This document shows, piece after piece, positions 9,910 to 60,034 of a stretch of 64,000 nucleotides of DNA. Numbering within the stretch: the stretch's first letter is position 1; every line of letters begins with the position of its first letter. The DNA is from Sanghuangporus weigelae (lineage: Eukaryota; Basidiomycota; Agaricomycetes; Hymenochaetales; Hymenochaetaceae). The translations under genes and the position numbers were made by a program. The notes below the pieces were generated by a model, which saw nothing but the letters and a program-made list of their open reading frames with translations, had not been told where the DNA came from and made no database searches. The DNA lies in the NCBI GenBank assembly GCA_033182465.1, contig CP137328.1, positions 1,364,001 to 1,428,000 of the forward strand, in the 5' to 3' direction.

Positions 9910-9911
9910 TA

Positions 9912-16250: not shown

Positions 16251-16280
16251 CGAAAAGTCGAATTCAGCAAGGTCGAGCCT

Positions 16281-32408: not shown

Positions 32409-32873
32409 TACGTAGAGATCAAGCCCTGTCAAATTGGACCTAAGTTTATATAGTCAACGGCATGGCAGGGGCCGGAGGAGCAGGGCAGAGGCAGCTGTAG
32501 TGGTGATCGGAATAGAGATGTTGGTTACTGTTTCTCCTAGGCAGGGATCACAAGTTCCGCTGTTTCGATTTTTATGATGTGGTTAGTTAGGTCCAAAGAC
32601 AATGCACACGAGTAGTCTACACGCTCAAAATCAAAATTTCTTCCAAGTTGTAAGTCGCATGTAATTTATTTACACAGTGGACATACATAGATTCTGAGGT
32701 CCGAGTTGTTATACTGTAGTAAGATCTCAATTTCATTTCAACCATCGGGTATCTTGATGATACTTCTGTTTCCAGAATGAGAAAACGGGAAGGCATCAAA
32801 AGCCGGGTACTCAACGCCATATACGGAAATTGTTCGGCTTGGGAAACGTGTTCGGTGCACTTGAGAAGGTCAT

Positions 32874-33011
32874 TCAATGACCTCGCGGTTGCAATGACAT
32901 GAACTCGTCATGTAAAGGAATATTCGCCTTAACGACAGAGCTGTCTGACCAGGCGAACGTATGAGTCACGACAAGCAAGTAAAGTGAAAATGCTCTTGCC
33001 ATAATTACCAT
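32874..33011 (-). CDS. Small secreted protein candidate, unit 1 copy
   Basis: Starts with a signal-peptide-like stretch (MVIMARAFSLYLLVVTHTFA) matching the longer copies at 43337 and 52817. After SDSSVV it diverges because unit 1 carries about 70 extra bases here (about 32,855-32,925). Those bases could be a retained intron or an insertion. The frame ends after 45 residues, and the rest of the related protein sequence continues in another frame toward 32,617. Either a differently spliced gene or a decayed one. Confidence 0.35.
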   Translation of the reverse strand: MVIMARAFSLYLLVVTHTFAWSDSSVVKANIPLHDEFMSLQPRGH

Positions 33012-33181
33012 GGTGATCTTGAGATAAGAAAATGTGTGAAAGAGGTCAAACTTGAAGAAAAAAGCGGGACCTGAGAAGCTCCCCTCGCACGCTCTTTTAT
33101 CTCTTCTGATGCCGAGTACTGGAAGCTGATTTGCATGAGCCAATTCCGAAAACAAAAGAAATAAAATTTACACTATATACA

Positions 33182-35101
33182 TCAAGTCCATTGGCCAGCT
33201 TCCCGCTCCGAGTACTTTTGCGCATCCCCTCTCCCTCTCTCCACGTTGACGTTCCAGAGCAAAGGCAGCGCGCTCCAAATCATCGCAACCAAAAAGAAGA
33301 ACGAATAGCGTATATTGCCCGTTGCATCCGCGATAAGCCCGACGACAAGCGGGCCGAGGAACGAGCTCGATTTATCAGTAATGGAGTATAACGCATACCA
33401 TCGCGCTTCTTCCCCGCGCGGGACGAGCTCGGCATAGAAAGCGCGTGCGTATGCTTGGAAGGCACCGTAGACTGTACCGAAGTAGACAGCAAGGGCGTAC
33501 ATCTCGCCTGGTGTTGTCAGCCCTCCGAAGTGTGGCGTTATCACTAACGTGTTGGCGTTGACGTTCGTGGAAGGAGAGTGGAACAGAGGGAGGAATCCAA
33601 GACATCCGTAAAGAGGGATGAAACTGCATGCACAGACGAGTGTGATAAGCACGCGTTTATTCGACCATCCAACGCGGCGTTGTATCCGCGGCCAGACGAG
33701 TGCACCAAGCACACCTGCGCCGTTCACCAACAGACCTACGATGATGAGCGAATTGGCAGGCATCTGGAGCTGCGTCTTGCCGAATAAGAGTGCAGTGGAC
33801 GTGATAGTGGTGAATCCGTCGCTCAGTAAGAACCATGCACCGAGGAAAAGAAAAGTGTGCTTTAGACGCCTGATCTCCGTCCAGCGAAGTATTTGGCCCA
33901 AGCGTTTCCACGCTTTCCATATTTCTCGCTTCAGACTGAACGGTCCAATTTCTTCAGAGGATTCTTTAAGTAACAGAGACGAAGTTCCAGGAAGCCATGT
34001 ACCGGCAGGAATCGTGAAAAGAGCCCACCATAGTCCACTAGCGAAGATGGCGAGGCGTAGTGAAAAGGTCGAGCCTTTCATAAGTGTTACAGGAACCAAA
34101 GTTATGATGAGCGCGACAATTCCTGCAAAATATCCCAATGCAATACCCGTGCCTGAAATTCGCGCAGTCGTTTGCGAGACGAGAGAAGTATACTTCTCAA
34201 AGAGAGCTTGCGCCTCAGGAGACGATCGATGCTCGTGTGGTAACAGTGGCTCTTCGTACGTATCTTCATCAGATTCTCTTTCCTCACTGTCCTGTTGAGG
34301 TATCAATATCGATGCATGGTCTGAAGAGTGTAATTCTTGGAACGCGACGACAACTGCCTTGTCCTCGCCTGCAAGCGTTGGCAGATACGCGTTCATCGCT
34401 ACAACACTTGCGCCAAATCCGACATTTGCTATGATGGCGAAGAGTGCTGCCAGTGGCCACACGGAAGAGGAAGATGGAAGGGCGAGGAAGAACATTGCAG
34501 ATATTGAGCCCAATGCGGCGAATAGAAGGAGAGCACGTTTCCGGTGAGGTGCTGAGAATGTTGTTAGTGCCAACTTGACTGAAGATATAAATGGCTGCGA
34601 TGCGTACGATGGTCTGCAATCCCACTCATGGAGATGACGGTCAGTGCTTGAAGTGCAACGGAAATTGAATACACGTATAGACTGCGCCTCATCAGTAGAA
34701 AGTTTCCTGCAACTAAGTCTGTATGTACCTGAAGCTAGCGCTGTCGACCCAAACCCAGCCAATCTTGACAACACAGCGAGTATCCTCAGCTGTATCTGCA
34801 GCATTGAGTGGTGCAGTCTTTACTGTCGAGCAGGGTCTTGTCTTGTCTGGAAGGAGATAGCCATTGTCCCGAGCGAATTGTTCAAGGCAGATCGGTAGGA
34901 AAAGCGTCAGAGAGACGACGACAAATACTTCACTTTCGGAAGTACAAGACATGTTAGATGCTGGTGTTGAGGTATCCAGAACGTAGCATCACACCTTGCG
35001 AAAGCATAACTCAGCCAGCCGCGCAGATGTCGCTTCGCCTTCCCTTCCTCGTATTCATCCCGATGTGGTACATGATTTGGAGGTGCATCCTCAGAGTCCA
35101 T
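33182..35101 (-). CDS. ATG22: Vacuolar amino-acid effluxer Atg22, unit 1 copy
   Basis: Four exons (35101-34995, 34932-34729, 34681-34608, 34551-33182) join in frame to 584 residues. The order of segments is that of Atg22: HLRGWLSYAFASEVFVVVSL, EQFARDNG, RCVVKIGWVWVDSASFSL, YVYSISVALQALTVISM, then the HRKR loop and several further membrane helices. Atg22 is a major-facilitator-like vacuolar membrane protein that exports amino acids released by autophagic breakdown. An acidic loop (SEERESDEDTYEEPLLP) around residue 240 is typical of the family's cytosolic linker. The start is chosen at MDSEDAPPN because it is the ATG preceding the first conserved helix. Gene X is divergently oriented, about 1.0 kb away. 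Confidence 0.9.
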
Positions 35102-36115
35102 CACACCAGAGTAAGATAAAGGCAGTCGATGCTGCTTCGTATTGATAGAGAGAAAATAGTCTGCTATACGATTGTTGACGACAAAGTGAGCAGGAAGTGA
35201 AGCTACGAGAGTGATGGCATGATGGACGAAACCAAGTCGCGTCGCGTGCAACAACGGCTTTGACCTTGAACATAAACCACCACGTCTGTCCAGGCCCTCG
35301 AGATTGACTTGAATAAATACCTTCAACTTTATCGTTGCGGGCAGCTTGTCGGACATTCTTGATGCAAATCGTCGAGCCTCTCTGAGACCGTCAAGCCTTT
35401 CGAACTTCGTTGCTGTGAACTCCTGCACTCTGTATGAATAAGCAAAGACCACTAGGAAAGATATACATGGGAGCTGATGTACTCAAAGCTAGACGCGGTA
35501 TCAATTGAACTCCAACTCATCCAAGCTCGTACGTTTTCCCGCTGCAGTCCGTGTCCTAGTTCAGTATAATGAGTTAAAAAATTAGGGCCGACGATGCAAA
35601 GAATCAAATGAAAGAGTCAAAAACATGATTCGGAACGACCTGTCGTGTCGGCCTCCACGAGTACGGTTCTACATACTGCAGCTTCAAGGGATCTTTCCGA
35701 CAGGCGAGCATCATGTCGTTATTCACGGCAGTCTGTTCACGTCGTGCTCTCCGTATTCAAAACCTAAGCGTATTATATCTGCCAATAAGCCGATAACCGG
35801 TGTGCTGTTTTGCATCTCACGACTCGCGTTTACACTCAATGCTGTGGTGAGATCCGTGTCGTTCGTGAGTTTATTGGATCAGAATAGTTTGGTGGCTCAG
35901 ATCGATAGTAGCCCGGCCAAACAGAGCAGGTCCTTTTTCGTCAAAGGCGCCCTACTCTTCGTGTACAGGATCTATCATTTGCGGTTTACCTCCATCATCG
36001 ACCTCCCAAATATAGTCCAGCAATACTTGTGGTTCAAGGTACGTGATCGCAGTTTTTGTGCTAGCTGTACTATCATATTAAGGTCATTTCTTCAGACTCA
36101 CATACTTTCTCTACG
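35102..36115. promoter_or_regulatory. Divergent intergenic region between Atg22 and gene X (unit 1)
   Basis: About 1 kb between the start of Atg22 (-) and gene X (+), repeated at 45426-46330 and 54906-55810 with roughly 110 bases missing. A probable 5'-UTR intron of gene X lies at 36039-36095 (caag|gtacgt...ttcag|actc). The frames here (for example 35625-36119) do not splice into gene X, so I read this as a shared promoter region. No specific factor site is claimed. Confidence 0.5.
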
Positions 36116-38515
36116 ATGAAGCGTTTTCTCAAAACCGTTCAGAAAGGATGCAAGAAGCTCTTGCAATGTGTGAAGCGCGATCGGGATGGGCACAGTTCGC
36201 AGAACCTGTGGGCTCGGGACTTCGCGATATACCTGCCTTGGCCCCGGGTAAATGCCCAGGGATATACCGGACGATGGCCTCTCACTCCAATTGCTGCACC
36301 CCCGAGTCCTCGGCGTCAATTTGCAATGGACATGACAGTGTCTACAATACCTCCATCGGAGGAACAAGTAGACGCCAAACCCGAATCCCACTCGGTCCCT
36401 TCTCCCAGGCCTAATCATAAACGAGTAAGGTCTCCGACTCCTCAACCTGGACCACTGAGTCCCAAGCAAAAGAAAAGAATCCTTACTGTATGTCTAAATG
36501 AATTCTATGTCGAGCCTGCTTTCTAACGGATAGCTTTTGGTCACAATCAGGCTGCCTCAACTTCAGCGTCAGACAGCGACCGATTTTCTCAGGTGTCGTC
36601 CTCTGATGAAGAATCCGAGGGAAAGGAGAAGAGGAATAGTTTTCGCTATGCGATACCTGCGAGCTCGCCTGAACCTCATCCCTCTGGCTCTCTGAATGAA
36701 GCCAGCGAGTCTGAAAATTCGGTACCTGAACCGGATCCTGTATCTTCTTTTGATCAAGAGTCGCTGTCTTTACCCCAGTTCAAGAAGGCGCTGAAATGGT
36801 TTCGCCTGGTACAGCAAATGGTTACGAGGGAGTGCATGGATGATTATGTGCTCAAGGATTTTTGTCCTCCCCAGGCGTTGCTGTTCTTCGTTTATCACGG
36901 TTGGGTTGAGTTGCAGGACGTAATGGCTTGGGAACATGCTCGTGAAGCACTCGGAGAGGCGCTCGTCATTAACTCGAAGCTATCAAACGGTTTTCAATGG
37001 CTCCGCGACGGAAGTACACCAGGTAGTTCAAATGAACCTCCGTCGGAAAACGAGATAGTCACTTTTTTGAATGGTTGGCAAGTCAGCACAGACCCTACGA
37101 TGATGTATAGCTGGCGGGAAGACAAGCGTTGCAGATCGAAGTATGGGCCGTTTGGGCGTAGTATTGCAATCTATGCATCTCCTGCAGAACAGGAAAGGGT
37201 ATTGCAGGAGCTTTCGAAGTATGACTTGGATCCTGAGAGCATCGGCCTTCCAGATAACTTGAAGCGTCTTTTTGAGCCGCTGTTCAGAAGGAAGCACGCT
37301 TCTGGTATCGAATCTCGTTCCCAGAGCACTTTCCAGCCACAGGCAGAAGCAAGAGACTACGAAGAGCGCGACGAATCCTTGCGGCCTGAAGGGTCCTCGG
37401 CAAATCCAGATGAACGGGTGAACAGGAATCATCATACCACTGATAGTAACGACGCTCTCGACAGAGAGCTTGACAATCAACCGGAGAGTACTCGGATCAA
37501 TTGGGCCGAGAAGGAGACACTGAAGGCTGATGCTACTGATGTATGTTGGCAGCCAACGTCGGTTCCCCAGGCTGCGACGCATGGAGCTGGACCGATTCCG
37601 GTGCAGACATCTCTACAGATGGAAGGAGCTCAGGAGCTCGTGCACTCTTTTGGAACGTCAGAAATGCCCACTATGATGTGTCAGTATCCGGATTTCTTCA
37701 ACACAAGTATTCCTATTAGGCAGCAGGCTCCATTTCAGTTTCACCAGCCGTGCGACTCGTATGCAAACATCGCAGCGCGTCCCATGGGTTGTCAGGCGAG
37801 CTCGGGTTGTTCCTACAATCCTGAAGATACGAGCATGGGTTTCGTCCCCATCAACGTGGCTGGGCCAGCTACCATTTCGTCTGGTCAACGGGACGATTTC
37901 GAAATGACCTTTGGGTTTAATGGTGCTTCACAAGCTGCCCAATCATCTATGCCGTCTACATGGTTTACCTCGGTATATTCGAACGCCACTTCTTTCGAGA
38001 CCGGGAGACAGTACGTAAATGCTGACGTTACGCCGACCTGGCGAAGTCCGCTAGAACCGCATGCTCCGTCGCAAGCGCAGTCGCAAACACCATGGGCCGT
38101 ACAAGCACAGGTCAGCTTCCATCAAGTGCCATTGCCTCATCGCGCGAACTCATATGCTCCTCAGTCGACTCCATTGCCTGCCAAATACCCTCCACATTCT
38201 TCAGTTCATCCCCTAGACCTACTGGCCCGCGACGATCAGGATTCTGGCGAGACGACTGAGAAACCACAAAGTAGATTGTCTCTGCGAAGAGTCAACCATC
38301 GTCAAGACAGGAATCAAACGGGTACCGGTCGGCGGCGCGGTACAAAATCGCACAAGGGAAGCAATAATGCTCCGCTCCCAGCAGGATCATCTGAGTTTAA
38401 TGGACTTAATGCGGTTACGAGACAGGCTCTTGTTGCTCTCCCTGAGGCTCAACCCTTTCCTCAACCTCAACCTTTGATTGAGTCACAACCTGAGGACTCA
38501 ATGACTCTCGATTGA
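36116..38515 (+). CDS. Gene X: unknown 778-residue protein, intact copy
   Basis: Two exons (36116-36487, 36551-38515) with a 63-nt intron join in frame. The N-terminus is a basic helix (MKRFLKTVQKGCKKLLQCVK). A Ser/Pro-rich segment with basic clusters follows (NHKRVRSP, SPKQKKR), then an acidic patch (SSSDEESEGK). The best candidate folded region is about residues 195-340 (ALKWFRLVQQMVTRECMDDY, FCPPQALLFFVYHGWVELQD, MAWEHAREALGEAL). The second half is low-complexity, rich in Gln, Pro and Ser, and ends with a basic GRRRGTKSHKG stretch. I recognise no family. The composition suggests a nuclear or regulatory protein, which is inference only. Copies at 46331 and 55811 are pseudogenes. Confidence 0.75.
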
Positions 38516-38820
38516 GTCCAGTCGTTTATTAGCAGATTAGAATAGTAATACTCATAGTTTTTTTTATTTTGCGCAAGTACAGGTTTGTGTCATCGTTATC
38601 GCAGCATCTGTCTATCCGCCTTTTTCTAAATTTTAATTCTGTTTCTTTTCTTGTTTCGCCTGGATGCTTTTCGTATTTGTACTTAATCTATGGAATGAAC
38701 AGACTGAAATCGGAGTAGTCTTTCTTCATAATAAAAGTTCACTTTCGACCAAAAGAAGGGAGTTCAGAATACAGCTGTTGCGAAGCTTACGATTTTCTTG
38801 ACCACAAATCACCATTTGCA
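38516..38820. other. Gene X 3' flank
   Basis: Immediately around the gene X stop, ggactcaat-gactctcg-attgagtcc forms a 9-bp stem with an 8-nt loop (about 38494-38519). T-rich sequence and a probable polyadenylation region follow. The hairpin is kept in unit 2 and nearly kept in unit 3. Confidence 0.45.
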
Positions 38821-38821
38821 G

Positions 38822-39110
38822 TATTGAGCAATGTAGTCTCTACTATCAAACAGAGCCTTGACTTGTCTGGAAGGAGATAGTCCTTCCGAGCGGATCGCTC
38901 GAGACATATGGTAGGAAAAGCGTAAGTGAGATGAAGATAAATAATACCTCATCTTCGAAAATATTACTACACATATTCAAGCTGATGCTTGGATTTGAGG
39001 GGCATCTTGCGAAAACATGGCTGCGCAGGTGTCGCTTCGCTGTCTTTCGTCGTTTATCATCAAATGCGGCGTGTAACGCGGGAGGCTTTCTCAGAGTCCA
39101 TCAAGGCAGG
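38822..39110 (-). pseudogene. Truncated Atg22 5'-end relic, unit 1
   Basis: The DNA parallels the first two exons of Atg22 (compare 34800-35105). Shared runs are cttgtctggaaggagatag, gtaggaaaagcgt, catcttgcgaaaacat, gcgcag.tgtcgcttcg and ctcagagtccatca. The deduced peptide still reads like GYLLPDK in the better-kept unit 2 copy. The transporter body is absent. It is a remnant of an extra Atg22 copy that existed before the units were duplicated, since all three units carry it. Confidence 0.78.
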
Positions 39111-39149
39111 ATAAGAGAGTAAAAATTCTTGCGATACTGCCCGTCCGTA

Positions 39150-39959
39150 CATTCCATAATGATTTGGACACGTGATTTTTGCCATTTTCGGCCCTCCTGC
39201 ACCTCAAAACACAAAATAAATCATATCTCACCCAATACTTAACCGTTTTGCTGATCTAAGTTGCTAAATTCATCATTGAGTTGTGGGTTTCATATTCCAA
39301 CTTGAGTGATGGAAAAAGGTGTTGAAAACAGAGCCGTCGCCGGTCACAACCACAGCGGGCAAACTGTTATTTAGACCCGGACTAAATCAATCCATAACTA
39401 GATGACAAATAAAATTTGAAATGTAGTAATGCATTTAGTCGCGTAATATATTTGATGTTTGTTCTTTGACTAAATGATAAACTATATTTGAAATAACAAA
39501 AGGGATTTAGATTCGGATTTTGCAAACAAAGAAATAACTATAATTACTAAAACCGGTAATTATAGTTATTTCTTTGTTTGCAAAATCCGAATCTAAATCC
39601 CTTTTGTTATTTCAAATATAGTTTATCATTTAGTCAAAGAACAAACATCAAATATATTACGCGACTAAATGCATTACTACATTTCAAATTTTATTTGTCA
39701 TCTAGTTATGGATTGATTTAGTCCGGGTCTAAATAACAGTTTGCCCGCTGTGGTTGTGACCGGCGACGGCTCTGTTTTCAACACCTTTTTCCATCACTCA
39801 AGTTGGAATATGAAACCCACAACTCAATGATGAATTTAGCAACTTAGATCATGCAAAACGGTTAAGTATTGGGTGAGATATGATTTATTTTGTGTTTTGA
39901 GGTGCAGGAGGGCCGAAAATGGCAAAAATCACGTGTCCAAACCATCATGGAATTCACTG
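39150..39959. mobile_element. Long-TIR palindromic DNA element B, copy 2 (near-perfect hairpin)
   Basis: An 810-bp element made of two arms (39150-39546 and 39557-39959) around a 10-nt centre (ctaaaaccgg). The arms are nearly identical inverted copies. The right end is ...GAATTCACTG; the left end lacks a few terminal bases. TA flanks it at 39148-39149 and 39960-39961. Units 2 and 3 have the same locus without it (cccgtacaagac near 49365 and cgtccgtacaagac near 58862), fixing the boundaries. The subterminal box atctcacccaatacttaacc lies in each arm. No transposase is encoded. Confidence 0.9.
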
Positions 39960-40159
39960 TATGTAAAGCGACTTGTGGAAAAGAAAAGGCATTGCCGAAG
40001 CTGTGGTAAGAGAATGAAATTTTACAACTACAAAGCTAGCGTTACACCTGTCGTGCTTCGCACATACTTTTTCTAACTAACAGTGAAAGCCACGAAGCAT
40101 TTTGTACTGCATTGCGTAGCCAGACAGTTCAATGAGACTTGAGAGTTACAACACAGGTA

Positions 40160-40875
40160 CTACTGGTTGACGAATTGCTTGAATGCCTCATAGCAAGAAA
40201 GGATTATCCTCCTGTTATCCAAAGGATTCATACCTTCACTCCAACGACGTGCGAGGGGCGGTAGATCAGGAACGTAGACATGATCAACCATCTCTTGTTG
40301 AGGGTACACACCCCCTTGTACGGCAGTGACGAGATCGATGGAAACTGGAATTCTGTAGAAGATGGGCGTGGTTCCTGTGAGCGTGATCCCAGGAATAACT
40401 TTGGACTGGAGTGGCGGTAAGCTCATCGTTCTCGCTCGAGTCTGATTGTTCGCGGTAAATGCTGCAATAGCTTCGGCAATAAGCTGAGGCTCGGGATCGA
40501 AGCCCTCCATATGGCGTTTATCTTCTTGAACGAGTAGACGGGTTTCATCATTGTCGTCCATAATACAGACATCCGTTTGAGTAAGTCTGTTTTCACCGCA
40601 AATAAGAAGTGGCATTTCCTTCCTTGTCCGGGCAACCCTTCCAATTCCAGTAAACCACAAGCGCGGAAGAGGACGACCATGAAGTCAACAACAGCCGACT
40701 CCTCGTCTGGGCGAATGGCCATGGCGAACTCGAGAGTGCGAAGGAACAGATAGCCATCATCCGATGACGCCTGATCAGCCCTAGCGGCTTTCAGAACCTC
40801 CGCAGGTGCTAAGACAGGATCTGGAGGTACAGGCGTTCCGAAGAAAGTAGCCGCAGTACGAATGAGATTTGCCAT
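40160..40875 (-). pseudogene. PD-(D/E)XK-like protein gene, unit 1 copy (frameshifted)
   Basis: Compared with the other units, the gene would encode about 238 residues, from MANLIRTAATFFGTP to YEAFKQFVNQ. The centre has IPLLICGENRHTQTDVCIMD and LLVQEDKRH, that is D...(15-20)...ExK, the core of the PD-(D/E)XK nuclease-like fold. The C-terminal part (EPQLIAEAIAA, PGITLTGTTPIFYRIPVS, PARRWSEGM) resembles a family of uncharacterised mushroom proteins I have seen before; this is from memory, not a search. One base is missing near 40651 relative to copies 2 and 3, which shifts the frame after ACG. The ExK motif itself is intact in this copy. Nuclease activity is inference. Confidence 0.65.
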
Positions 40876-41124
40876 TGTATATGTTGAAAGCGCATGAATA
40901 TACGAACTAGACGAGAAGACTCAGAAAAGACCTACCTGAACGAGTTGCCACCGCGTGAGCGGTTTTTTTTTATCGGAGCATTTAGCTGTAACATATATAG
41001 TAAGTTACGTCGATCATACTTTGCCAAATGTAAGTCGACCGGGTCACAATGAGTCTCGTTCGTGACTGCGTTACAGAATAGGAGGGGTTATACTAAGCCC
41101 GCATTGTCCACCAATCAATCATCC

Positions 41125-42243
41125 ATGGCCACATCATTCGTCAAATACTCTCAGCAAATCCGTGGCGGTCCGAACTATGGAGAAAAATACGGACGCTCCA
41201 AAAGTATACACATTGTGCTTTTCGATTGCTCTTCAATGTCTCCTGACAGCGGGTCGGACGAAATAGAAAGTCCCATTCTTGCACGCTTCAAGAGCACTGT
41301 AGAAGAAGCAGTGAAAGGTAGTGGGGATAAGGAAATTAAAGTTCGCTTTGCTGTCATTGTACGTTTTCTGAAGCGATTGCTCTTGATGCCTGGGATTTTG
41401 ATGATTTTCCACCTTCATAGCGTGCTCCTCAGCAAGCGAGGGTCAATCAGTGTACACAGAGTAATATGCGCTTTCTCGGAAAATTAATGCTTGGCTGGGG
41501 TCATTATGGAGAGAAGTATATGTTTTCTGCATGGATGGAGCAAATTAAGGAGGGATATTATGAAGTCGCAAGAGAGTGTGAGATGCGATGATCCTGTTTG
41601 CAAATTACTTTACTCACAGATCAATGCCAACAGATAATGTAGATGACGATGAGAAAGTGAGAGAATCGGTATTGCTATTTGGCGATGGCGAGGGTGCTAT
41701 GGCTGCAATCGGAGTTGCCCGGCTTATCAACAAAGTCAGTATGCTCAGACTTATTTACTGTATGGTCATTTTGATTACTAGCATAGGTCGGCGTCTTAGA
41801 ACCCTGGGCCTTTGAAGAGAAAGGCACTTTCAACAGGGCTTTCAAGTATGCCATGGACCATTCATGCGACGAGGACAGATTATATGCTTTTGTAAGTAAG
41901 CATTCATTTACTCGTAGTCGAGCTTCCCACTCACGATAGGCTTAGAAAACGCTGCGGGCATCAATCGCTAAGGTGGATTTACTTGGTCTATGGTGCAATG
42001 AGAGCAGAGCGTGCCAGATTTCTAAGGCAGTTGGAAACGATAAGGCGTTGCGAGAGAAATTGGTCCTACACAATCGTGATAAATGTGAGTCGCATCAGCC
42101 ATTTGAGTCATGGATTAGTTTCAGAATGGTGACTTTTCGCGATAGGCGAGCTTTGCAAGACGACTGGTGATACCTGCGCAGTCGATTCGATGGTTATGGC
42201 GCTCCATATTGAATGTCCGTATATCCCATATATTGCACAATAA
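41125..42243 (+). CDS. Gene Y: unknown six-exon protein, unit 1 copy
   Basis: Exons 41125-41358, 41433-41575, 41620-41734, 41787-41891, 41946-42084 and 42146-42243 join in frame to 277 residues. Peptide landmarks are MATSFVKYSQQIRGG, IHIVLFDCSSMSPDS, RFLGKLMLGWGHYGEKYMFS, SVLLFGDGEGAMAAIGVARL, LEPWAFEEKGTF, and a C-terminal CELCKTTGDTC cluster that could bind a metal. No family is recognised. One intron is only 44 nt. The second exon carries a 9-bp in-frame insertion (CTQ) compared with the unit 2 copy. The start was chosen at the ATG shared by both copies; an in-frame upstream ATG at 41062 would add 21 residues. Confidence 0.65.
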
Positions 42244-42888
42244 GTGCATTATTTAGGAAACAGTCATGTAGCGAAGTCACTGCCGTTGTTCATCTACTTC
42301 TGTAATTGTATGCTATATTATTTGTCGACCAATCTAAACATGTAACTCTTGAGAACCAGTATTCCACTGTAGGCTTGACATTCGATGCAACTACGCAATC
42401 GAAACCCTTCGTCAACGTACGATTGCCATATTACACGAGGTAAGCAGCAGTCGCACAAGGATCAGACACTAAGAAGCTTCAAGGTGCTTGTGAATTTTCG
42501 CGATCCAGCAGAGGTATCCGAGACAAGATGAATGCGAGCCGTATATAGTCCAGGCATATAAGGTATGAGGTCGAATTCTGAGGGGAATTCGGAAGAGATT
42601 GGTGAGGCACTTTATGCCTCTGTTTTCTTCTGTGTATATTTCTCTTTGTTTTGGTTTTTTTTTTGTCGCACCCTCATGATCTATTTTTGTAAACATAATA
42701 CTAAGCGTTGATGTCAATCCTTTCTACTAAATTGTTTGAAGATTTTGAAAGCCTGCTTGACGCCGCACGGACCGCAAGTACAAGCATTATTCTAAATCAG
42801 AGGATGATCAGAAGTTGCTCGAATAGGTGCCCAGATTGCAAAAATCATTGTCGCATTCTATAACATCAGAACCCTTGTACCCTGACTG
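42244..42888. other. Intergenic end of unit 1
   Basis: Gene Y 3' flank with T-rich tracts (near 42655-42665) and no frame I can support. Repeated at 51724-52368 without a difference that I could see. Confidence 0.5.
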
Positions 42889-43073
42889 TAGTGGTGATCG
42901 GTTTAGAAATGTTTGGTAACTGTTTCTCCTAGACTAGGATCACAAGTTCCGCTGTTTCTCTTTTCATGATGCGGTTAGTTAGGCTCAAAGACAATGCACA
43001 CGAATAGTCTTCACGCCAAAATCAAAATTCCTCCCAACTTGTAAGGCGCATTGATTCTATTTATACAGCGGAC

Positions 43074-49042: not shown

Positions 49043-49325
49043 AGTATTGAGCAACGTAGTCTCTACTATCAAACAGAGCCCTGACTTGTCTGGAAGGAGA
49101 TAGCCCTTCCGAGTGAATCGCTCAAGACATATGATAGGAAAAGCGTAAGAAACGAAGATAAATATCTCATCTTCGAAAATATTACCACACATATTCAAGC
49201 TGACACTCGGATTTGAGGGGCATCTTGCGAAAACATGGCTGCGCAAGCGTCGCTTCGCTGTCTTTCGTCGTATATCATCAAATGCAGCGTGTAATGCAGG
49301 TGGCTTTCTCAGAGTCCATCAAGGC
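49043..49325 (-). pseudogene. Truncated Atg22 5'-end relic, unit 2
   Basis: The best preserved of the three relics. The minus-strand frame at 49246-49025 contains KGYLLPDKSG and TTLLNTANGD, which parallel NGYLLPDKTR and TAPLNAADTA of Atg22. Only the region of exons 1-2 remains. It is unlikely to be expressed as a transporter. Confidence 0.78.
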
Positions 49326-49561
49326 AGGATAAATGAGTAAAAATTCTTGCGATACTCTGCCCGTACAAGACAAAGCCACTAGAGGAAAAGAAATTCACGC
49401 ATTGCCGAAGCTGTGGTAAGGGAATGAAGTTTTACAACTACAGAGCTAGCGTTACACCTGTCCAAATACTTCTTCTAACTTACAACGAAAGCCACGGACC
49501 ATTTTATACTACATTGTGTAGCCAGACAGTTCAATGAGACTTGAAAGTTACAATACAGGTA

Positions 49562-50279
49562 CTACTGATTGACAAATTGCTTGAACGCCTCATAGCAAGA
49601 AAGGATTATCTTCCTGTTATCCAAGGGCTTCATACCTTCGCTCCAACGACGTGCGGGGCGCGGTAGAACAGGAACGTGGACGCGAACAGCCGTCTCTTGT
49701 TGAGGATACACACCCCCTTTTACGGCAGTAACGAGATTGATGGAAACTGGAATTTTGTAGAATGTGGGCGTGGTCCCTGTCAGCGTGATGCATGGCATAA
49801 CTTTGGACTGGAGAGGCGGTAAGCTCAACGTTCTCACTCGCGTTTGATTGTTTGCGGCACATGCTGCGATAGCTTCGGCAATAAGCTGAGGCTCGGGATC
49901 GGTGCCGTCCATATGGCGTTTATCTTTCTTGAACAAGTAGACGGATTTCATCATTGTCGTCCATGATACAAACATCCGTTTTAGTATGTCTGTTTTCACC
50001 GCAAATAAGAAGCGGTATTTCCTTCCTTGTCCGGGCGACTCTTCCAACTCCAGTATAACCACAAGCACGGAAGAGGGCGACCATGAAGTCAACAACAGCC
50101 GACTCCTCGTCTGGACTGATCGCCATAGCGAGCTCGAGAGTGCGAAGAGACAGATAGCCATCATCCGATGACGCCTGATCAGCCCTAGCGGCTTTCAGAA
50201 CCTCCGCAGGTGCTAAGACAGGATCTGGAGGTACAGGCGTTCCGAAGAAAGTGGCCGCAGTACGAATGAGATTTGCCAT
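49562..50279 (-). pseudogene. PD-(D/E)XK-like protein gene, unit 2 copy (frameshifted)
   Basis: Same gene as 40160-40875. Here the N-terminal two thirds are open (MANLIRTAATFFGTP through DDNDEIRLLVQE), but one extra base near 49925 shifts the frame inside the ExK motif, so the reading ends at VQER. The same extra base is in unit 3 and not in unit 1. The downstream part is otherwise well kept in the shifted frame. Confidence 0.7.
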
Positions 50280-50613
50280 TGTATATGTTGAAAATGCATG
50301 AATATACTACGACTAGACGAGAAGACTCAGAAGAGACCGACCTGAACGAGTTGCGGATTTTTTTATCGGAGCTTGAAGGTTTAACATGTATAGTAAGTTA
50401 CGTCGATCATACTTTGCCAATGTCAATAATTACCTCGGCATCCTCTCTTCAGGTACCTCACACCCTGCCGATCTTAATGCCCATTGCTCTCTCTCACTGC
50501 CTCAAGAATTGAGAGGGGCTAATGTATGAGTCGACCGGGTCACAATGAGTCACGTTCGTGACTGCGTCTCAGAATAGGAGATACTATGTCCATTGTCCAC
50601 CAATCAATCATCC

Positions 50614-51723
50614 ATGGCCACATCATTCGCCAAATACTCTCAGCAAATCCGTGGCGGTCTGAACTATGGAGCGGCATACGGACGCTCCAAAAGTATACAC
50701 ATCGTGCTTTTCGATCGCTCTTCAATGTCTCCTGACAGCGGGTCGGACGAAATAGAAAGTCCCATTCTTGCACGCTTCAAGAGCACTGTAGAAGAAGCAG
50801 TGAAAGGTAGTGGGGATAAGGAAATTAAAGTTCGCTTTGCTGTCATTGTACGTTTTCTGAAGCGATTGCTCTTGATGCCTGGGATTTTGATGATTTTCCA
50901 CCTTCATAGCGTGCTCCTCAGCAAGTGAGGGTCAATCAGCGTAATATGCGCTTTCTCGGCAAATTAATGCTTGGCTGGGGTCATTATGGAGAGAAGTATA
51001 TGTTTTCTGCATGGATGGAGCAAATTAAGGAGGGATATTATGAAGTCGCAAGAGAGTGTGAGATGCGATGATCCTGTTTGCAAATTACTTTACTCACAGA
51101 TCAATGCCAACAGATAATGTAGATGACGATGAGAAAGTGAGAGAATCGGTATTGCTATTTGGCGATGGCGAGGGTGCTATGGCTGCAATCGGAGTTGCCC
51201 GGCTTATCAACAAAGTCAGTATGCTCAGACTTATTTACTGTATGGTCATTTTGATTACTAGCATAGGTCGGCGTCTTAGAACCCTGGGCCTTTGAAGAGA
51301 AAGGCACTTTCAACAGGGCTTTCAAGTATGCCATGGACCATTCATGCGACGAGGACAGATTATATGCTTTTGTAAGTAAGCATTCATTTACTCGTAGTCG
51401 AGCTTCCCACTCACGATAGGCTTAGAAAACGCTGCGGGCATCAATCGCTAAGGTGGATTTACTTGGTCTATGGTGCAATGAGAGCAGAGCGTGCCAGATT
51501 TCTAAGGCAGTTGGAAACGATAAGGCGTTGCGAGAGAAATTGGTCCTACACAATCGTGATAAATGTGAGTCGCATCAGCCATTTGAGTCATGGATTAGTT
51601 TCAGAATGGTGACTTTTCGCGATAGGCGAGCTTTGCAAGACGACTGGTGATACCTGCGCAGTCGATTCGATGGTTATGGCGCTCCATATTGAATGTCCGT
51701 ATATCCCATATATTGCACAATAA
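50614..51723 (+). CDS. Gene Y: unknown six-exon protein, unit 2 copy
   Basis: Intact second copy of the gene at 41125-42243, without the 9-bp insertion in exon 2 (274 residues expected). Differences are concentrated in the first 40 codons (FAKYS, GLNYGAAYG, LFDRSS). From the middle of exon 2 onward the two copies are identical, including introns. No copy exists after unit 3. Function unknown. Confidence 0.65.
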
Positions 51724-52368
51724 GTGCATTATTTAGGAAACAGTCATGTAGCGAAGTCACTGCCGTTGTTCATCTACTTCTGTAATTGTATGCTATATTA
51801 TTTGTCGACCAATCTAAACATGTAACTCTTGAGAACCAGTATTCCACTGTAGGCTTGACATTCGATGCAACTACGCAATCGAAACCCTTCGTCAACGTAC
51901 GATTGCCATATTACACGAGGTAAGCAGCAGTCGCACAAGGATCAGACACTAAGAAGCTTCAAGGTGCTTGTGAATTTTCGCGATCCAGCAGAGGTATCCG
52001 AGACAAGATGAATGCGAGCCGTATATAGTCCAGGCATATAAGGTATGAGGTCGAATTCTGAGGGGAATTCGGAAGAGATTGGTGAGGCACTTTATGCCTC
52101 TGTTTTCTTCTGTGTATATTTCTCTTTGTTTTGGTTTTTTTTTTGTCGCACCCTCATGATCTATTTTTGTAAACATAATACTAAGCGTTGATGTCAATCC
52201 TTTCTACTAAATTGTTTGAAGATTTTGAAAGCCTGCTTGACGCCGCACGGACCGCAAGTACAAGCATTATTCTAAATCAGAGGATGATCAGAAGTTGCTC
52301 GAATAGGTGCCCAGATTGCAAAAATCATTGTCGCATTCTATAACATCAGAACCCTTGTACCCTGACTG
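51724..52368. other. Intergenic end of unit 2
   Basis: Same as 42244-42888: gene Y 3' flank, no supported gene. Confidence 0.5.
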
Positions 52369-52553
52369 TAGTGGTGATCGGTTTAGAAATGTTTGGTAAC
52401 TGTTTCTCCTAGACTAGGATCACAAGTTCCGCTGTTTCTCTTTTCATGATGCGGTTAGTTAGGCTCAAAGACAATGCACACGAATAGTCTTCACGCCAAA
52501 ATCAAAATTCCTCCCAACTTGTAAGGCGCATTGATTCTATTTATACAGCGGAC

Positions 52554-52817
52554 TTACATAGATTCTAAGATCCGAGTTGTTACAACCTGTACCATCTTCA
52601 GGTAAGGTCTCAATTTCATTTCAATCATCGGTATATTGATACTTCTGTTTCCAGAATGAGAAAGTGAGAAGGCATCAAAAGTCGGGTACTCAACGCCATA
52701 TACAAAGATAGTCCGGATTGGGAAACGTGTTTGATACACGACAGTGCTGTCTGATGAGGCGAACGTTTGAGTAACGACAAACAAGTAAAGTGAAAATGTT
52801 CTTGCCATAGTTACCAT
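52554..52817 (-). CDS. Small secreted protein candidate, unit 3 copy
   Basis: Identical to the unit 2 candidate at 43074-43337: signal-peptide-like start and an 87-residue frame. It lies inside the tract that is identical between units 2 and 3, so its conservation there carries no independent weight. Confidence 0.35.
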   Translation of the reverse strand: MVTMARTFSLYLFVVTQTFASSDSTVVYQTRFPIRTIFVYGVEYPTFDAFSLSHSGNRSINIPMIEMKLRPYLKMVQVVTTRILESM

Positions 52818-52991
52818 GGTGATTTTGAGATAGGAAAACGTGCGAAAGCGGTCAAACTTGAAGGAAACCGGGACCAGAGAAGCTTCCCTCACGCGCTCCT
52901 TTATCTCTTCTGATGTCGAGAACTGGAGGCTGATTTGCATGAGCCAGTTCCGAAAACAAAAGAAATTGAATTTACACTATATACATCAAGT

Positions 52992-54905
52992 TCATTGGCC
53001 AGCTTCCCGCTCCGAGTACTTTCGCGCATCCCCTCTCCCTCTCTCCATGTTGACGTTCCAGAGCAAAGGCAGCGCGCTCCAAATCATCGCAACCAAAAAG
53101 AAGAACGAGTAGCGTATATTGCCCGTTGCATCCGCGATAAGCCCGACGACAAGCGGGCCGAGGAAGGAGCTCGATTTATCAGTAATGGAGTATAACGCAT
53201 ACCATCGCGCTTCTTCCCCGCGCGGGACGAGCTCGGCATAGAAAGCGCGTGCGTATGCTTGGAAGGCACCGTAGACTGTACCGAAGTAGACAGCAAGAGC
53301 GTACATCTCGCTTGGTGTTGTCAGCCCTCCGAAGTGCGGCGCTGTCACTAACGCGTTGGCGTCGACGTCCGTGGAAGGAGAGCGGAACAGAGGGAGGAAT
53401 CCAAGACATCCATAAAGAGGGATGAAACTGCATGCACAAACGAGTGTGATAAGCACGCGTTTATTCGACCATCCAACGCGGCGTTGTATCCGCGGCCAGA
53501 AGAGCGCACCAAGCACACCTGCGGCGTTCACCAATAGACCTACGATGACGAGCGAATTGGCAGGCATCTGGAGCTGCGTCTTGCCGAATAAGAGTGCAGT
53601 GGATGTGATAGTGGTGAATCCGTCGCTCAGTAAGAACCATGCACCGAGGAAAAGAAAAGTGTGCTTTAGACGCTTGATCTCCGTCCAGCGAAGTATTTGG
53701 CCCAAGCGTTTCCACGCTTTCCATATTTCTCGCTTCAGACTGAACGGTCCAATTTCTTCAGAGGATTCTTTAAGTAACAGAGACGAAGTCCCAGGAAGCC
53801 ATGTACCGGCAGGAATCGTGAAAAGAGCCCACCATAGTCCGCTAGCGAAGATGGCGAGGCGTAATGAAAAGGTCGAGCCCTTCATAAGTGTTACAGGAAC
53901 CAAAGTTATGATGAGCGCAACGATCCCTGCAAAGTATCCCAATGCAATACCCGTGCCTGAAATTCGCGCAGTCGTTTGCGAGACGACAGAAGTATACTTC
54001 TCAAAGAGAGCTTGCGCCTCAGGAGACGATCGATGCTCGCGTGGCAACAGTGGCTCTTCGTACGCGTCCCCGTCAGATTCCCTTTCTTCACTGTCCCGTT
54101 GAGGGATCAATATCGATGCATAGTCTGAAGAGTGTAATTCTTGGAACGCAGCGACAACTGCCTTGTCCTCGCGTGCAAGCGTTGGCAGATACGCGTTCAT
54201 CGCTACAACACTTGCGCCAAATCCGACATTTGCTATGATGGCGAAGAGTGCTGCCAGTGGCCACACAGAAGAGCGAGATGGAAGGGCGAGGAAGAACATT
54301 GCAGATATTGAGCCCAATGCGGCGAATAGGAGGAGAGCACGTTTCCGGTGAGGTGCTGAGAATGTTGTTAGTGCCAACTTGACTGAAGATATAAATGGCT
54401 GCGATGCGTACGATGGTCTGCAATCCCACCCATGGAGATGACGGTCAGTGCTTGAAGTGCAACGGAAATTGAATAGACGTATAGACTACGCCTCATCAGT
54501 AGAAAGTTTCCTGCAACAAAGTCTGAATGTACCTGAAGCTAGCGCTGTCGACCCAGACCCAGCCAATCTTGACAACACAGCGAGTATCCTCAGCTGTATC
54601 TGCAGCATTGAGTGGTGCAGTCTTTACTGTCGAGCAGGGTCTTGTCTTGTCTGGAAGGAGATAGCCATTGTCTCGAGCGAATTGCTCAAGGCAGATCGGT
54701 AGGAAAAGCGTCAGAGAGACGACGACAAATACTTCACTTTCGGAAGTACAAGACATGTTAGATGCTGGTGTTGAGGTATCCAGAACGTAGCATCACACCT
54801 TGCGAAAGCATAACTCAGCCAGCCGCGCAGATGTCGCTTCGCCTTCCCTTCCTCGTATTCATCCCGATGTGGTACATGATTTGGAGGTGCATCCTCAGAG
54901 TCCAT
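52992..54905 (-). CDS. ATG22: Vacuolar amino-acid effluxer Atg22, unit 3 copy
   Basis: Identical to the unit 2 gene over exons and introns (introns about 54838-54777, 54572-54526 and 54451-54396), with open frame and the same predicted role in exporting amino acids from the vacuole. With units 1 and 2 it makes three apparently working Atg22 genes in 22 kb, whereas fungi usually keep few copies. The identity lies within the 5.4-kb homogenised tract. Confidence 0.9.
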
Positions 54906-55810
54906 CACACCAGAGTAAGATAAAGGCAGTCGATGCTGCTTCGTATTGATGGAGAGAAAACAGTCTGCTACAAGATTGTTGACGGCAAAGTGAGCAGGGA
55001 GTGAAGCTACGAGAGTGATGGCATGATGGACAAAACCAAGTCGCGTCGCGTGCAAACAACGGCTTGACCAATGACCTTGAACATAAACTACTACGTCTGT
55101 CCAGGTCCTCAACATCGACTTGAACAAATACCTCCTTCAACTTTATCGTTGCGGGCAGCTTGTCGGACATTCTTGATGCAAATGGTCGAGCCTCTCTGAG
55201 ACCCATCGTACACCGTCGAGCCTTTCGAACTTCGTTGCTGTGAACTCCTGCACTCTGTATGAAGAAGCAAGGCTCGGGAAAAGACCACTAGGAACAATAT
55301 GCATGGGAGCTGATGTCCAGTACTCAAAGCTAGACGCGGTATCAATTGAACTCCAACTCATCCAAGTTCGTACGTTTTCTCGCTGCAGTCCGTGTCCTAG
55401 TTCAATATAATGAGTTAAAGAATTAGAGCCGACGATGCAAAAGGAGTCAGAAATATGATTCGGAATGGCCTGTCGTGTCAGCCTCCGTTATTCATGGCAG
55501 TCTGTTCACTTCGTGCTCTTCGTATTCAAAACCTAAGCGTATTATATCTGCCAATAAGCCGATAGCCGGTGTAGAATAGTTTGGTGGCTCAGATCGATAG
55601 TAGCCCGGCCAAACAGAGCAGGTCCTTTTTCGTCAAAGGCGCCTTCCTACTCTTCGTGTACAGGATCTATCATGTGCTGTTTGCCTCCATCATCGACCTC
55701 CCAAAGATAGTCCAGCAATACTTGTGATTCAAGGTACGTGACCACAATTTTTGTGCTAGCTGTAATATCATACTAAGGCCATTCCTCCAGATTCACATAC
55801 TTTCTCTCTG

Positions 55811-58142
55811 ATGAAGCGTTTCCTCAAAACCGTTCAGAAAGGATGCAAGAAGCTCTTGCAATGTGTGAAACGCGATCGGGTTGGGAACAGTACGCAGAAC
55901 CTGTGGGCTCGGGACTTCGCGATATACTTGCCTTGGTCACGAGTAAATGTCCAGGAGAATAATGGACGATGGCCTCTCACTCCAATCGCTGCATCCCCGA
56001 GCCCTCGGCGTCAATCTGCGATGGAGATGATTTCTACGATATCTCCATCGGAGGATCAAGTGGACGCCAAGCCCGAACCCCACTCGGTCCCTTCTCCCAG
56101 GCCTAATCATAAACGAGTAAGGTCTCCAACTTTTCAACCTGGACTTCTGAGTCCCAAGCAAAAGAAAAGAATCCTTACTGTACGTTTAAATGAATTCTAT
56201 GTCGAGCCTGCTTTCTAACGGATAGCTTTTGATCACAATCAGGCTGCCTCAACTTCCGCGTCAGACAGCGACCAATTTTCTGAGGTGTCGTCCTCTGATG
56301 AAGAACCCGAGGGAAAGAAGAAGAATGGGTTTCGTTATGCGGCACCTGCGAGCTCGCCTGAACCTGCTCTAGTACAAAGAACTCAGCCTTCTGGATCTCT
56401 GAATGAAGGCGGCAAGTCCGAAAATCCGGTACCTGAACCGGATCCTGCATCTTCTTTTGACCAAGAGTCACTGTCTTTACCGCAGTCCAGAAAAGCGCTG
56501 AAATGGTTTCACCTGGTACAGTGAATGGTTACAAGGGAGTGCATGAACGATTATGTGCTCAAGGATTTTTGTCCTCCGCATGCGTTGCTGTTCTTCGTTT
56601 ATCACGCTTGGGTCGAACTGCAGGATGTAATGGCTTGGGAACATGCTCGTAAGGCACTCGGAGAGGCGCTCGTCATTACTTCGAAGCTACCGAACGGTTT
56701 TCCATGGCTCCGCAACGGTAGTACGCCAGGTAGTTCAGGTGAACCTCCGTCGAAAAACGAGATAGTCAATTTTCTGAATGGTTGACAAGTCAGCACGGAT
56801 CTGGCGAACGAGTATAACTGGCAGGAAGATAAGTATTGCAGATCGAAGCATGGGCCGTTTCGGCGTAACGTTGCAATTTATGCACCTCCTGCAGAGCAGG
56901 AAAGGGCATTGCGGGAGCTTTTGAAGCACGACCTGGATCCTGAGAACATCGACTTTCCAGATAACCTGAAGCGTCTTGTTGTGCCACTGTTCCGAAGGAA
57001 GCACGCTTATGATGTTGAGTCTCGTTCCCAGAACACTTTTCGGCCATAGGCAGAAGCAAGGGACTACGACAAGCACGACGAATCCTTGCGGCCTAATGAG
57101 TCCTCGGCAAATCTAGATGAACGGGTGAACAGGAATCACCATACCACTGATAGTAACGATGCTCTCGACAAATCAACCGGAGAGCACTCAGATCAATTGG
57201 TCCGAGAAGGCAAAGTTGAAGGCTGATGTTACCGGTGTATGTTGGCAGCCAACATCGGCTTTTCAGGCTGCAACGCATGAAGCTGGACCGATCCCGGTGC
57301 AGAAATCTCTACAGACGGAAGGAGGCCAGGAGTCTGTGCACTCCTTTGGAACGCCAGAGAAGCCCACTACTATGTGTCAATATCCGGATTTCTTCAATGC
57401 AAGCATTGCTATAGGACAGCAAGCTCCATTCCAGATTCATCAGCCCTGCGAACCGTATGCAATCACCACAGTGCATCTCATAGATTATCAGGCGAGCTCA
57501 AGTTGTTCCTACAAATCTCAAGCTACGAGCATGGGTTTCGTCCCCGTCAATAGGGCTGGGCCAGCGATCATTTCGTCTGGTCAACAGGTCAATTCTGAGA
57601 TGTCCTTTGGGTTCAATGGCGCTTTACAAGCTGCTCAGCCATCTATGCCGTCTACATGGTTTACCTCGGTAAATTCGAACGCCACTTCTTTCGAGGCCGG
57701 GAGACAGTACGTAAATGCTGACGTTATGCCGACCTGGCGAAGTCCACTAGAACCGCATGCTCCGTCGCAAGCGCAGTCGCAAACACCATGGGCCGCACAG
57801 GCACAGGTGGTACCACGGGTCAGCTTCCATCGAGTGCCATTGCCTCACCGCGCGAACTCATATTTGCCTCAGTTGACTCCATTGCCTGCCAAATACCCTC
57901 AACATTCTTCGGTTCATCCCCTAGACCAACTGGCCCACGACGATCAGGATTTTGATGAGACGACTGAGAAACCACAAAGTAGATTGTCTCTACGAAGAGT
58001 TAAGACAGGAATCAAACGGATACCGGTCGGCGGCGCGGTGCAAAAACGTGCAAGCGAAGCAATAATGCTCCACTCCCGGCAGGATCGTCTGAGTTTAATG
58101 GATTCGTGCGGCTTCGAGACAGGCTCTTGTTGCTCTCGTTGA
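55811..58142 (+). pseudogene. Gene X pseudogene, unit 3
   Basis: Shares with unit 2 the stops at the equivalent codons (56522-56524, 56783-56785, 57047-57049). In addition it has a small deletion near 57168-57172 that shifts the frame, and further differences to its end at 58142. Exon 1 is still open. The 3' half from 57159 remains one long frame, but it cannot be reached from the start. Confidence 0.85.
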
Positions 58143-58502
58143 GGCTCAACCCTTTCCTCAATCTCAACCTTTGGTTGAGTCACAATCTAAGGACTCAATG
58201 ACTCTCGATCGAGTCCGGTCGTTGACAGACTAGAATTGTAGTACTCATTGTTTGTTTTTATTTTGCGCAAGTTCAGGTTCGTTTCATCTTTATCGCAGCA
58301 TCTATCCATCCGCCTTTTTCCAGGTTTTAATTTTGTTTCTTTTTTGTTTCGCCTGGATGCTTTTCATATTTGTACTTAATCTACGGAATGAACATAGCGG
58401 AATCGGAGTAGTCCTTCATAAAAGCTCACACGCGACCGAAAGAAGGGAGTTCCGAATACAGCTGTTGCGAAGCTAACGGCTTTCTTGATCACAAGTCACC
58501 AT

Positions 58503-58790
58503 TTGCAATATTGAGCAATGCCACAGTCTCTACTATCAAGCAGGGCCTTGACTTGTCTGGAAGGAGATAGCCCTTCCGAGTGGATCGCTCGAGACGGATG
58601 GTAGGAAAGGCGTAAGAGAGAAGAAGAGAAACACTTCATCTTCGAAAATATTACTACACATAATCAAGCTGATGCTAAGGGGCATCTCTTGCGAAAAAAT
58701 GGCTGCGCAGGTGTCGCTTCGGTTTCTTTCGTCGTATATCATCAAATGCGGCGTGTAACGCAGGTGGCATTTTCAGAATCCATCAAGACA
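58503..58790 (-). pseudogene. Truncated Atg22 5'-end relic, unit 3
   Basis: Third copy of the Atg22 5' remnant. The shared peptide trace is EVFLFFSLTPFLP against EVFVVVSLTLFLP in the intact genes. It has more small deletions than the unit 2 relic. Confidence 0.72.
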
Positions 58791-58798
58791 GAATAAGT

Positions 58799-58802
58799 GA
58801 GA

Positions 58803-58841
<39 letters not shown>
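58799..58841. repeat. (GA)n microsatellite
   Basis: About 20 GA dinucleotides with one interruption, present only in unit 3. Units 1 and 2 have a short 'gataa(g/a)(a/t)gag' sequence at this place, so this is a local expansion. Confidence 0.95.
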
Positions 58842-58843
<2 letters not shown>

Positions 58844-59108
58844 TCTTGAGATACTCTGTCCGTCCGTACAAGACAAAACCACACGAGGAAAAGAGAAGGC
58901 ATTACTCGAGGCTGTAGTGAGAGAATGAAAACTTACAACTACAATACATAGCTAGCGTTACATCTGCCCTACTAACAGCGAAAGCCACGGAGTATCACTT
59001 TGTACTACATTAATATTGTGTAGCTAGACAAACATATACAGTTCAATGAGACCTGAAAGTAATAAAAATGGAATCAAAGCAGACGACTTGCAAACAATAC
59101 AGGTACTA

Positions 59109-59823
59109 CTAATTGACAAATTGCTTGAATGCCTCATAGCAAGAAAGGATTATCCTTCTGTTATCCAAAGGTTTCATACCTTCACTCCAACGACGTGCGG
59201 GGCGCGGTAGAGCAGGAATGTGGACACGGACAACCGTCTCCTGCTGAGGATACACACACCCTTGTACGGCAACGACGAGATCGTTGGAAACTGGGGTTTT
59301 GTAGAAGGCGGGCGTGGTCCCTGTTAGCGTGATGCCTGGCATAACTTTGTACAGGGGTGGCGGCAAGCTCAGCGTTCTCACTCGCGTTTGGTTATTTGCG
59401 GCGCATGCTGCGATAGCTTCGGCAATAAGCTGAGGCTCGGGATCGGTGCCGTCCATATGGCGTTTATCTTTCTTGAACAAGTAGACGGATTTCATCATTG
59501 TCGTCCATGATACAAACATCCGTTTGAGTATGTCTGTTTTCACCGCAAATAAGAAGCGGTATTTCCTTTCTTGTCCGGGCAACTCTTCCAATTCCAGTAT
59601 AACCACAAGCACGGAAGAGGGCGACCATGAAGTCAACAACAGCCGACTCCTCGTCTGGGCGAATGGCCATGGCGAACTCGAGAGTGCGAAGAAACAGATA
59701 GCCATCATCCGATGACGCCTGCTCAGCCCTAGCGGCTTTCAGGACTTCCGCAGGTGCTAAGACAGGATCTGGAAGTACAGGCGTTCCGAAGAAAGTAGCC
59801 GCAGTACGAATGAGATTTGCCAT
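59109..59823 (-). pseudogene. PD-(D/E)XK-like protein gene, unit 3 copy (frameshifted)
   Basis: Same gene as 40160-40875 and 49562-50279. It carries the same extra base as unit 2, near 59469, inside the ExK motif, and its stop is one codon earlier than the other copies (FVN instead of FVNQ). The N-terminal frame starts MANLIRTAATFFGTPVLP. An in-frame ATG upstream (59901) is probably leader. It lies outside the identical tract and is somewhat diverged from unit 2. Confidence 0.7.
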
Positions 59824-60034
59824 TATATATGTTGATAACGCACGAACTAGATACGAGAAAGAGATCAACGTATATAGTAAGCTACGTCGATCAGAAATCA
59901 ACTAATACTTGTAGCTTGGCTCGGTGAACTGGGCAGCTCCCTCCATCTTATGTCTCATCTCATGTCTTACGAAGGCATGCACGACCGCGCTTCTACCTGC
60001 GACTTTTGAGTCATTGTGCACGATGATCGCATAA

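Follow-up and report, generated by a model that had tools for sequence, protein, structure and literature searches.

Does a tandem array in which one gene stays open in every unit record selection for more of that gene's product, or does it record how the copies came to resemble one another? This question is raised by a locus of the basidiomycete Sanghuangporus weigelae (GenBank assembly GCA_033182465.1), where three head-to-tail units, each carrying a gene of the Atg22 family, lie within the 64,000-nucleotide stretch of DNA that was analysed (the window; contig CP137328.1, here C11:1364001-1428000, without any N), and the genome that we searched comprised 33.87 Mb in 13 contigs. Yeast Atg22 acts in the release of amino acids from the vacuole, and tandem arrays of this kind, with gene conversion and concerted evolution, are well known. 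The evidence makes it probable that the array is an old tandem segmental duplication, with a truncated last unit, that is in concerted evolution and in which Atg22 is kept by purifying selection.

A first-pass annotation, made from the letters alone, had described three head-to-tail units with the same gene order, and this was borne out when the window was compared with itself by BLAST and the units were placed in a three-way alignment. In the self-comparison, 41027-50302 matched 50521-59846 at 95% over 9397 columns, 32932-35656 matched both 43258-46006 and 52738-55486 at 94%, and the region from 35881 matched unit 2 at 89.5% (to 39144) and unit 3 at 86.8% (to 39119), with inter-unit matches exceeding chance by a wide margin (E-values of 0.0 as output). 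The word CTGTAGTGGTGATCGG is common to all unit starts (32495, 42886, and 52366), and the units and the main insertion between them are as follows:

32495..42885, no strand, unit 1, ~10.4 kb, lengthened by a 0.8-kb palindromic insertion
42886..52365, no strand, unit 2, 9480 bp
52366..59850 (end approximate), no strand, unit 3, truncated before gene Y
39151..39953, no strand, palindromic (foldback-type) insertion, unit 1 only, arms 98% complementary

A head-to-tail arrangement, conserved gene order, and a shared start, which together characterize a tandem segmental duplication, are all present. The offset from unit 2 to unit 3 is 9480 bp and that from unit 1 to unit 2 is ~10390 bp, such that the proposed unit length of 9.5 kb holds for unit 2 but not for unit 1, which is longer mainly because of the insertion at 39151-39953, for which neither the self-comparison nor the three-way alignment gave a counterpart in units 2 and 3. 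Gene Y, as had also been claimed, was found in units 1 and 2 only and is missing from unit 3.

The relationship between units changes sharply along their length, and one long block occurs twice without a single difference:

41481..46897, no strand, identical block, equal to 50961-56377, 5417 bp, zero differences
50961..56377, no strand, partner of the identical block, equal to 41481-46897

This block spans most of gene Y, the unit junction, the region labelled S, the whole of Atg22, and the start of gene X. To its right, 200-column slices of the three-way alignment drop over ~700 bp from 97-99.5% to ~89%, and slices farther right are mostly at 84-97%, with two gappy ones at 78-83% beside the site of the unit-1 insertion. 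Over the gene X, X-to-relic, and nuclease regions, differences amount to 9.1-9.5% between units 1 and 2, 11-13% between units 1 and 3, and 5.5-10% between units 2 and 3, the 5.5% being the value for the X region, some of which lies inside the identical block; for units 2 and 3, the relic and nuclease regions are ~10% different. Gene X codons beyond the block gave synonymous divergences (dS) of 0.173-0.174 (units 1-2), 0.233 (units 1-3), and 0.109 (units 2-3). Because divergence between units 2 and 3 is up to ~10% outside the 5417-bp block and zero inside it, the triplication is old and the identity of units 2 and 3 is younger, given a correct assembly. The option of "simply recent duplication", which the annotation had left standing, does not agree with units 2 and 3 being ~10% apart in the relic and nuclease regions.

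For Atg22, a complete spliceable reading frame (586 or 584 amino acids) was found at the sequence level in each unit:

33182..35101, minus strand, Atg22 of unit 1, 4 exons, 586 amino acids, intact; introns 34933-34994, 34688-34728, and 34552-34607
43512..45425, minus strand, Atg22 of unit 2, 584 amino acids, intact; upper bound placed by the 10324-bp offset from unit 1, which is constant; open frame 43512-45005
52992..54905, minus strand, Atg22 of unit 3, DNA identical to unit 2, 584 amino acids

The four-exon structure is the same in all three, and an independent spliced alignment of the unit-2 gene encountered no stop and no frameshift. The long frame of unit 1 matched Pfam PF11700 (Vacuole effluxer Atg22 like) at 366.9 bits against a curated cut-off of 24.1, and units 2 and 3 reached 368.7 bits with profile positions 16-481 of 482 covered across the exon pieces, in a family that is broad (bacteria too, 3 of 14 controls). 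To judge from family membership only, the array genes most likely encode a vacuolar amino-acid exporter as in yeast. That Atg22 is open in all three units was correctly noted before, but these frames are not three independent witnesses: because units 2 and 3 are identical through 5417 bp, the independent Atg22 sequences number two.

Synonymous changes between the two sequence types number 32 and nonsynonymous ones 24 (dS 0.077, nonsynonymous divergence dN 0.018, ratio 0.24; Fisher P 2e-7), and by this check, which the annotation had itself proposed, the copies are constrained rather than evolving as freely as pseudogenes. When 55 of the 57 differences were polarised with a related copy on contig C2, the unit-1 lineage had 17 synonymous to 11 nonsynonymous changes and the unit-2/3 lineage 14 to 13, both synonymous-rich vs ~1:3 in sites (P 7e-5 and 0.003, respectively). 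These codon patterns indicate that both Atg22 types are under purifying selection, which does not equal selection for dosage.

The C2 copy corresponds to 30663-35206 of the window (87% alike at the left, 91.7% over Atg22), and in a spliced alignment its Atg22 carries five frameshifts and one stop. Changes private to it are spread near-evenly over codon positions (30, 20, and 24), which looks pseudogene-like, and it is split by an 11-kb insert, whose 334-bp ends are 99.7% identical and which is evidently a young long-terminal-repeat retrotransposon, with pieces that read as copia-type gag-pol. The annotation's Atg22 relic in every unit was likewise recovered, as a 5' part of the gene in units 1, 2, and 3:

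38814..38943, minus strand, relic of the 5' part of Atg22 in unit 1, with copies at 49037-49181 and 58524-58650

Divergence is 8-13% among the relics but 32-34% when they are compared with C2 or the intact Atg22 copies, so the ancestral unit already contained the relic. Beyond these, a PF11700 profile search of the genome found distant Atg22-like loci on C8 and C4 that showed no stop or frameshift in a permissive spliced alignment and that tblastn with the unit-1 protein matched weakly (lowest E-values 0.003 for C4 and 1.7 for C8). These loci may be intact, intron-rich Atg22-like genes, and because of this possibility the array type is perhaps not the sole working Atg22-like gene in a genome whose tally is three array copies, two distant loci (C8 and C4), and one pseudogene (C2).

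How, then, did old units come to share a young identity? Between 46898 and 50250, 467 two-state sites comprise 166 that join units 1 and 2, 213 that join units 2 and 3, and 88 that join units 1 and 3. Those of the first two kinds fall into 118 runs, vs 187.6 ± 9.6 in shuffles, with 0 of 10000 shuffles as low. Runs of at least five sites join units 2 and 3 at 46906-47595, 48841-49031, and 49860-50016, and join units 1 and 2 at 48123-48230, 48553-48707, 49129-49461, and 49714-49752. Stretches resembling unit 1 and stretches resembling unit 3 alternate along unit 2, a pattern that tract exchange accounts for simply and to which uneven mutation might contribute. Over the 5' end of Atg22, 2 of 370 sites separate units 1 and 2, vs 22 of 369 between unit 1 and the C2 copy (P 1.4e-5); in the adjacent S block, the counts are 68 of 512 and 66 of 583, respectively, and a conversion patch at this 5' end is thus well supported by the aligned sequences. 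For the whole gene against the S block, the ratio of ratios at all sites is 0.53 (z -2.8). Further, between units 1 and 2 the Atg22 dS of 0.077 is less than half that of gene X (0.173-0.174; P 8.6e-5), a gap that selection on the protein does not explain and that codon-use constraint might. Tracts of anomalous identity with diverged flanks, together with mosaic site patterns, form the pattern by which gene conversion is recognized; we infer conversion as the process behind the tracts, with assembly error possible for the 5.4-kb block.

Taken as a history, an old tandem segmental duplication would have produced three units, with the relic already in the ancestral one; gene conversion or repeated unequal exchange would then have moved tracts among them, latest between units 2 and 3, and selection would keep at least two Atg22 sequence types working. 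Part of Atg22 conservation is copying, not selection, and such copying may spread damage too, for which gene X is the candidate case:

36116..38515, plus strand, gene X of unit 1, 2 exons, intron 36488-36550, 778 amino acids, intact
46331..48745 (approximate), plus strand, pseudogene of gene X in unit 2, with stops in register and indels that shift the frame
55811..58213 (approximate), plus strand, pseudogene of gene X in unit 3, with three stops in register at unit-2 positions plus its own indels

The stops common to units 2 and 3 (unit-2 positions 47042, 47303, and 47567) fall where these two units are most alike, and because they do so, conversion may have spread them. The earlier statement that the passenger genes had decayed thus needs splitting: gene X is disrupted in units 2 and 3 but intact in unit 1, and the nuclease-like gene reads as broken in every unit. 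Repeat-induced point mutation, which would leave an excess of C-to-T changes with A as the next base and, as the complement, of G-to-A changes preceded by T, was considered as a cause of this decay and rejected: at 46900-50900 (unit-2 coordinates), A came next in 10 of 46, 1 of 19, and 10 of 56 C-to-T changes in units 1, 2, and 3, and T came before in 9 of 43, 4 of 18, and 13 of 59 G-to-A changes, counts that for unit 3 include unrelated sequence as the range runs beyond its end; neither that excess nor a marked drop in G+C content was seen in the units.

Several points weigh against concerted evolution as we describe it. First, at synonymous sites alone, the ratio of ratios for whole Atg22 is 0.76 (z -0.95) and not significant, and for this reason conversion between unit 1 and the others across the whole gene is not firm, the 5' patch alone being so; codon-use constraint could also lower Atg22 dS. 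Second, uneven mutation rates could cluster sites in the mosaic stretch, where 88 sites are private to unit 2, which therefore did not arise simply by recombination between the present units 1 and 3. Third, the complete absence of differences across 5417 bp, in units that are ~10% apart in the relic and nuclease regions, is what an error of assembly might leave. Fourth, the number of Atg22-like loci may lie beyond the published range. A study of Beauveria bassiana gives one to four Atg22-like genes in most filamentous fungi (PMC9959203); provided the C8 and C4 loci are intact, the count here may exceed this, and therefore slightly favors dosage.

Two alternatives survive best, although we consider each of them unlikely. 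Under selection for Atg22 dosage, more of the protein would be useful, e.g., for amino-acid recycling in fruiting or starvation, and this would suit a gene that is the sole one seen open in all three units (gene Y left aside), that is constrained in both its sequence types, whose pieces have been duplicated repeatedly (array, relic, and C2 copy), and whose loci may outnumber those of most filamentous fungi. Set against this, constraint speaks for use, not dosage; the open frames of units 2 and 3 stem from one sequence; the C2 copy was lost through frameshifts; and gene X survives too, in unit 1. Under an assembly artefact, the identical block, and perhaps one unit, would result from a 5.4-kb repeat or from two nuclear haplotypes merged into one path. 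The zero-difference block invites this explanation, but the window contains no N, 5.4 kb is generally below the usual long-read length, different neighbours flank the two block copies on both sides, and identity at the edges fades via near-identical stretches (exact for 209 bp and 180 bp, and slices at 95-99%), as conversion tracts may.

Slightly less likely than either is an adaptive copy-number locus, in which conversion would keep Atg22 intact while other unit genes decay and dosage would be held by concerted evolution centred on Atg22. Weakest is a single recent unequal crossover adding a third unit to a two-unit array, which fits the identity of the unit 2 and unit 3 starts and of most of both gene Y linkers, but which we regard as improbable, as it predicts a perfect match of unit 2 to unit 1 downstream, where ~9% difference is observed, and as 88 sites are private to unit 2.

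Read as an old array in concerted evolution, the locus resembles other concerted gene arrays in its head-to-tail units, shared start, homogenised tracts, mosaic relations, and one gene that survives while others break; unlike such arrays in general, it has three units only, and its homogenised core spans the unit junction and carries Atg22. Several Atg22-domain genes per genome are also found in B. bassiana, whose four BbAtg22 are distinct proteins at distinct locations (PMC9959203), unlike the three tandem genes here, which are 96.9-100% alike in DNA and are accompanied by distant loci on C8 and C4. The same study indicates that the Atg22 domain does not fix protein location in B. bassiana (PMC9959203), and a study of the fungus farmed by leafcutter ants describes two upregulated ATG22 isoforms (PMC10503033). 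We found no published report of tandemly arrayed Atg22 genes in basidiomycetes in searches of one open-licence library. In compact form, the locus illustrates how repeats that copy one another come to seem younger and more equally conserved than they are; where copies are identical, their open frames do not count as separate evidence of selection. If strains differ in copy number, it would also let one test the benefit of extra vacuolar amino-acid export to the fungus.

The remaining passenger genes are the nuclease-like gene and gene Y:

40160..40875 (upper bound by eye), minus strand, PD-(D/E)XK-like gene with interrupted frame, unit 1
49562..50279 (upper bound by eye), minus strand, PD-(D/E)XK-like gene with interrupted frame, unit 2
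59109..59823 (upper bound by eye), minus strand, PD-(D/E)XK-like gene with interrupted frame, unit 3
41053..42780 (by eye), plus strand, gene Y of unit 1, apparently intron-rich
50560..52260 (by eye), plus strand, gene Y of unit 2, a near match to the unit-1 gene and without differences from 50961 onward

The interruption of the nuclease-like gene, judged by eye, lies in the same motif in units 2 and 3 and in another place in unit 1. With the unit-2 piece as query, five matches were obtained in the genome, all inside the array, and two open pieces (one each of units 1 and 2) had no Pfam match at E 0.1; the PD-(D/E)XK label is putative and comes from a motif spotted by eye, not from a family match. 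At the DNA level, the part of gene Y at 41480-42800 matched its two array copies only.

The long open frame of gene X in unit 1 matched no Pfam family. Four loci related to it, 27-34% identical across the match, all lie on C11 within ~65 kb of the right end of the array and outside the window (C11:1438350-1488212; stretches L038, L039, and L058), and members of this family share a domain of ~180 residues with 24-50% identity to X, beside which they carry long tails of low complexity. Three of the four loci were compared with Pfam and gave no family above the cut-off. A confident model of the domain, predicted from five sequences, is all-helical (predicted local distance difference test 87.1, predicted template-modelling score 0.86) and matched no Protein Data Bank fold at E 0.001; a limit of E 10 admitted 39 matches, the best of them at E 1.0. 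About 40 kb downstream of the array lies a local cluster of related sequences, 64-80% alike (C11 joined coordinates 99381-113228; L040 and L041), of which two open frames tested had no Pfam match at E 0.01; the window and three downstream stretches gave no Rfam match at gathering score. Elsewhere in the genome, tyrosinase loci, together with short introns and the style of the genes, fit a basidiomycete; one tyrosinase piece on C2 matched the PPO4 tyrosinase chains (Agaricus bisporus) of the Protein Data Bank at only 44.7 bits, and the family of fungal fruit-body lectins matched neither this genome nor the controls and is therefore uninformative.

At the other end of the window, a Ty3-type retrotransposon (14562-20041, minus strand) has three long open frames with matches to gag, reverse transcriptase, RNase H, integrase, and chromodomain, in surroundings (1-22 kb) that are repeat-rich. 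Next to the array itself lies one further feature:

30663..32494, no strand, left flank, absent from units 2 and 3; further copies on C2 (one) and on C11 near 1.174-1.180 Mb (two)

This flank and the S region are included in a 2.3-kb segment that occurs in four places, 76-87% alike, namely the window (30663-33086), C2 (stretch L020, 1352-3785), and a tandem pair on C11 near 1.174-1.180 Mb (stretch L045, 1189-3550 and 4377-6862). Finally, the insertion in unit 1 (39151-39953) is one of three large palindromes of 0.8-1.1 kb that look like foldback elements, the others being at 8802-9935 of the window and at C11 ~1496.3-1497.4 kb (joined coordinates 132329-133422); their arms are 92.6-98.3% complementary, and the latter two copies are 93-95% alike.

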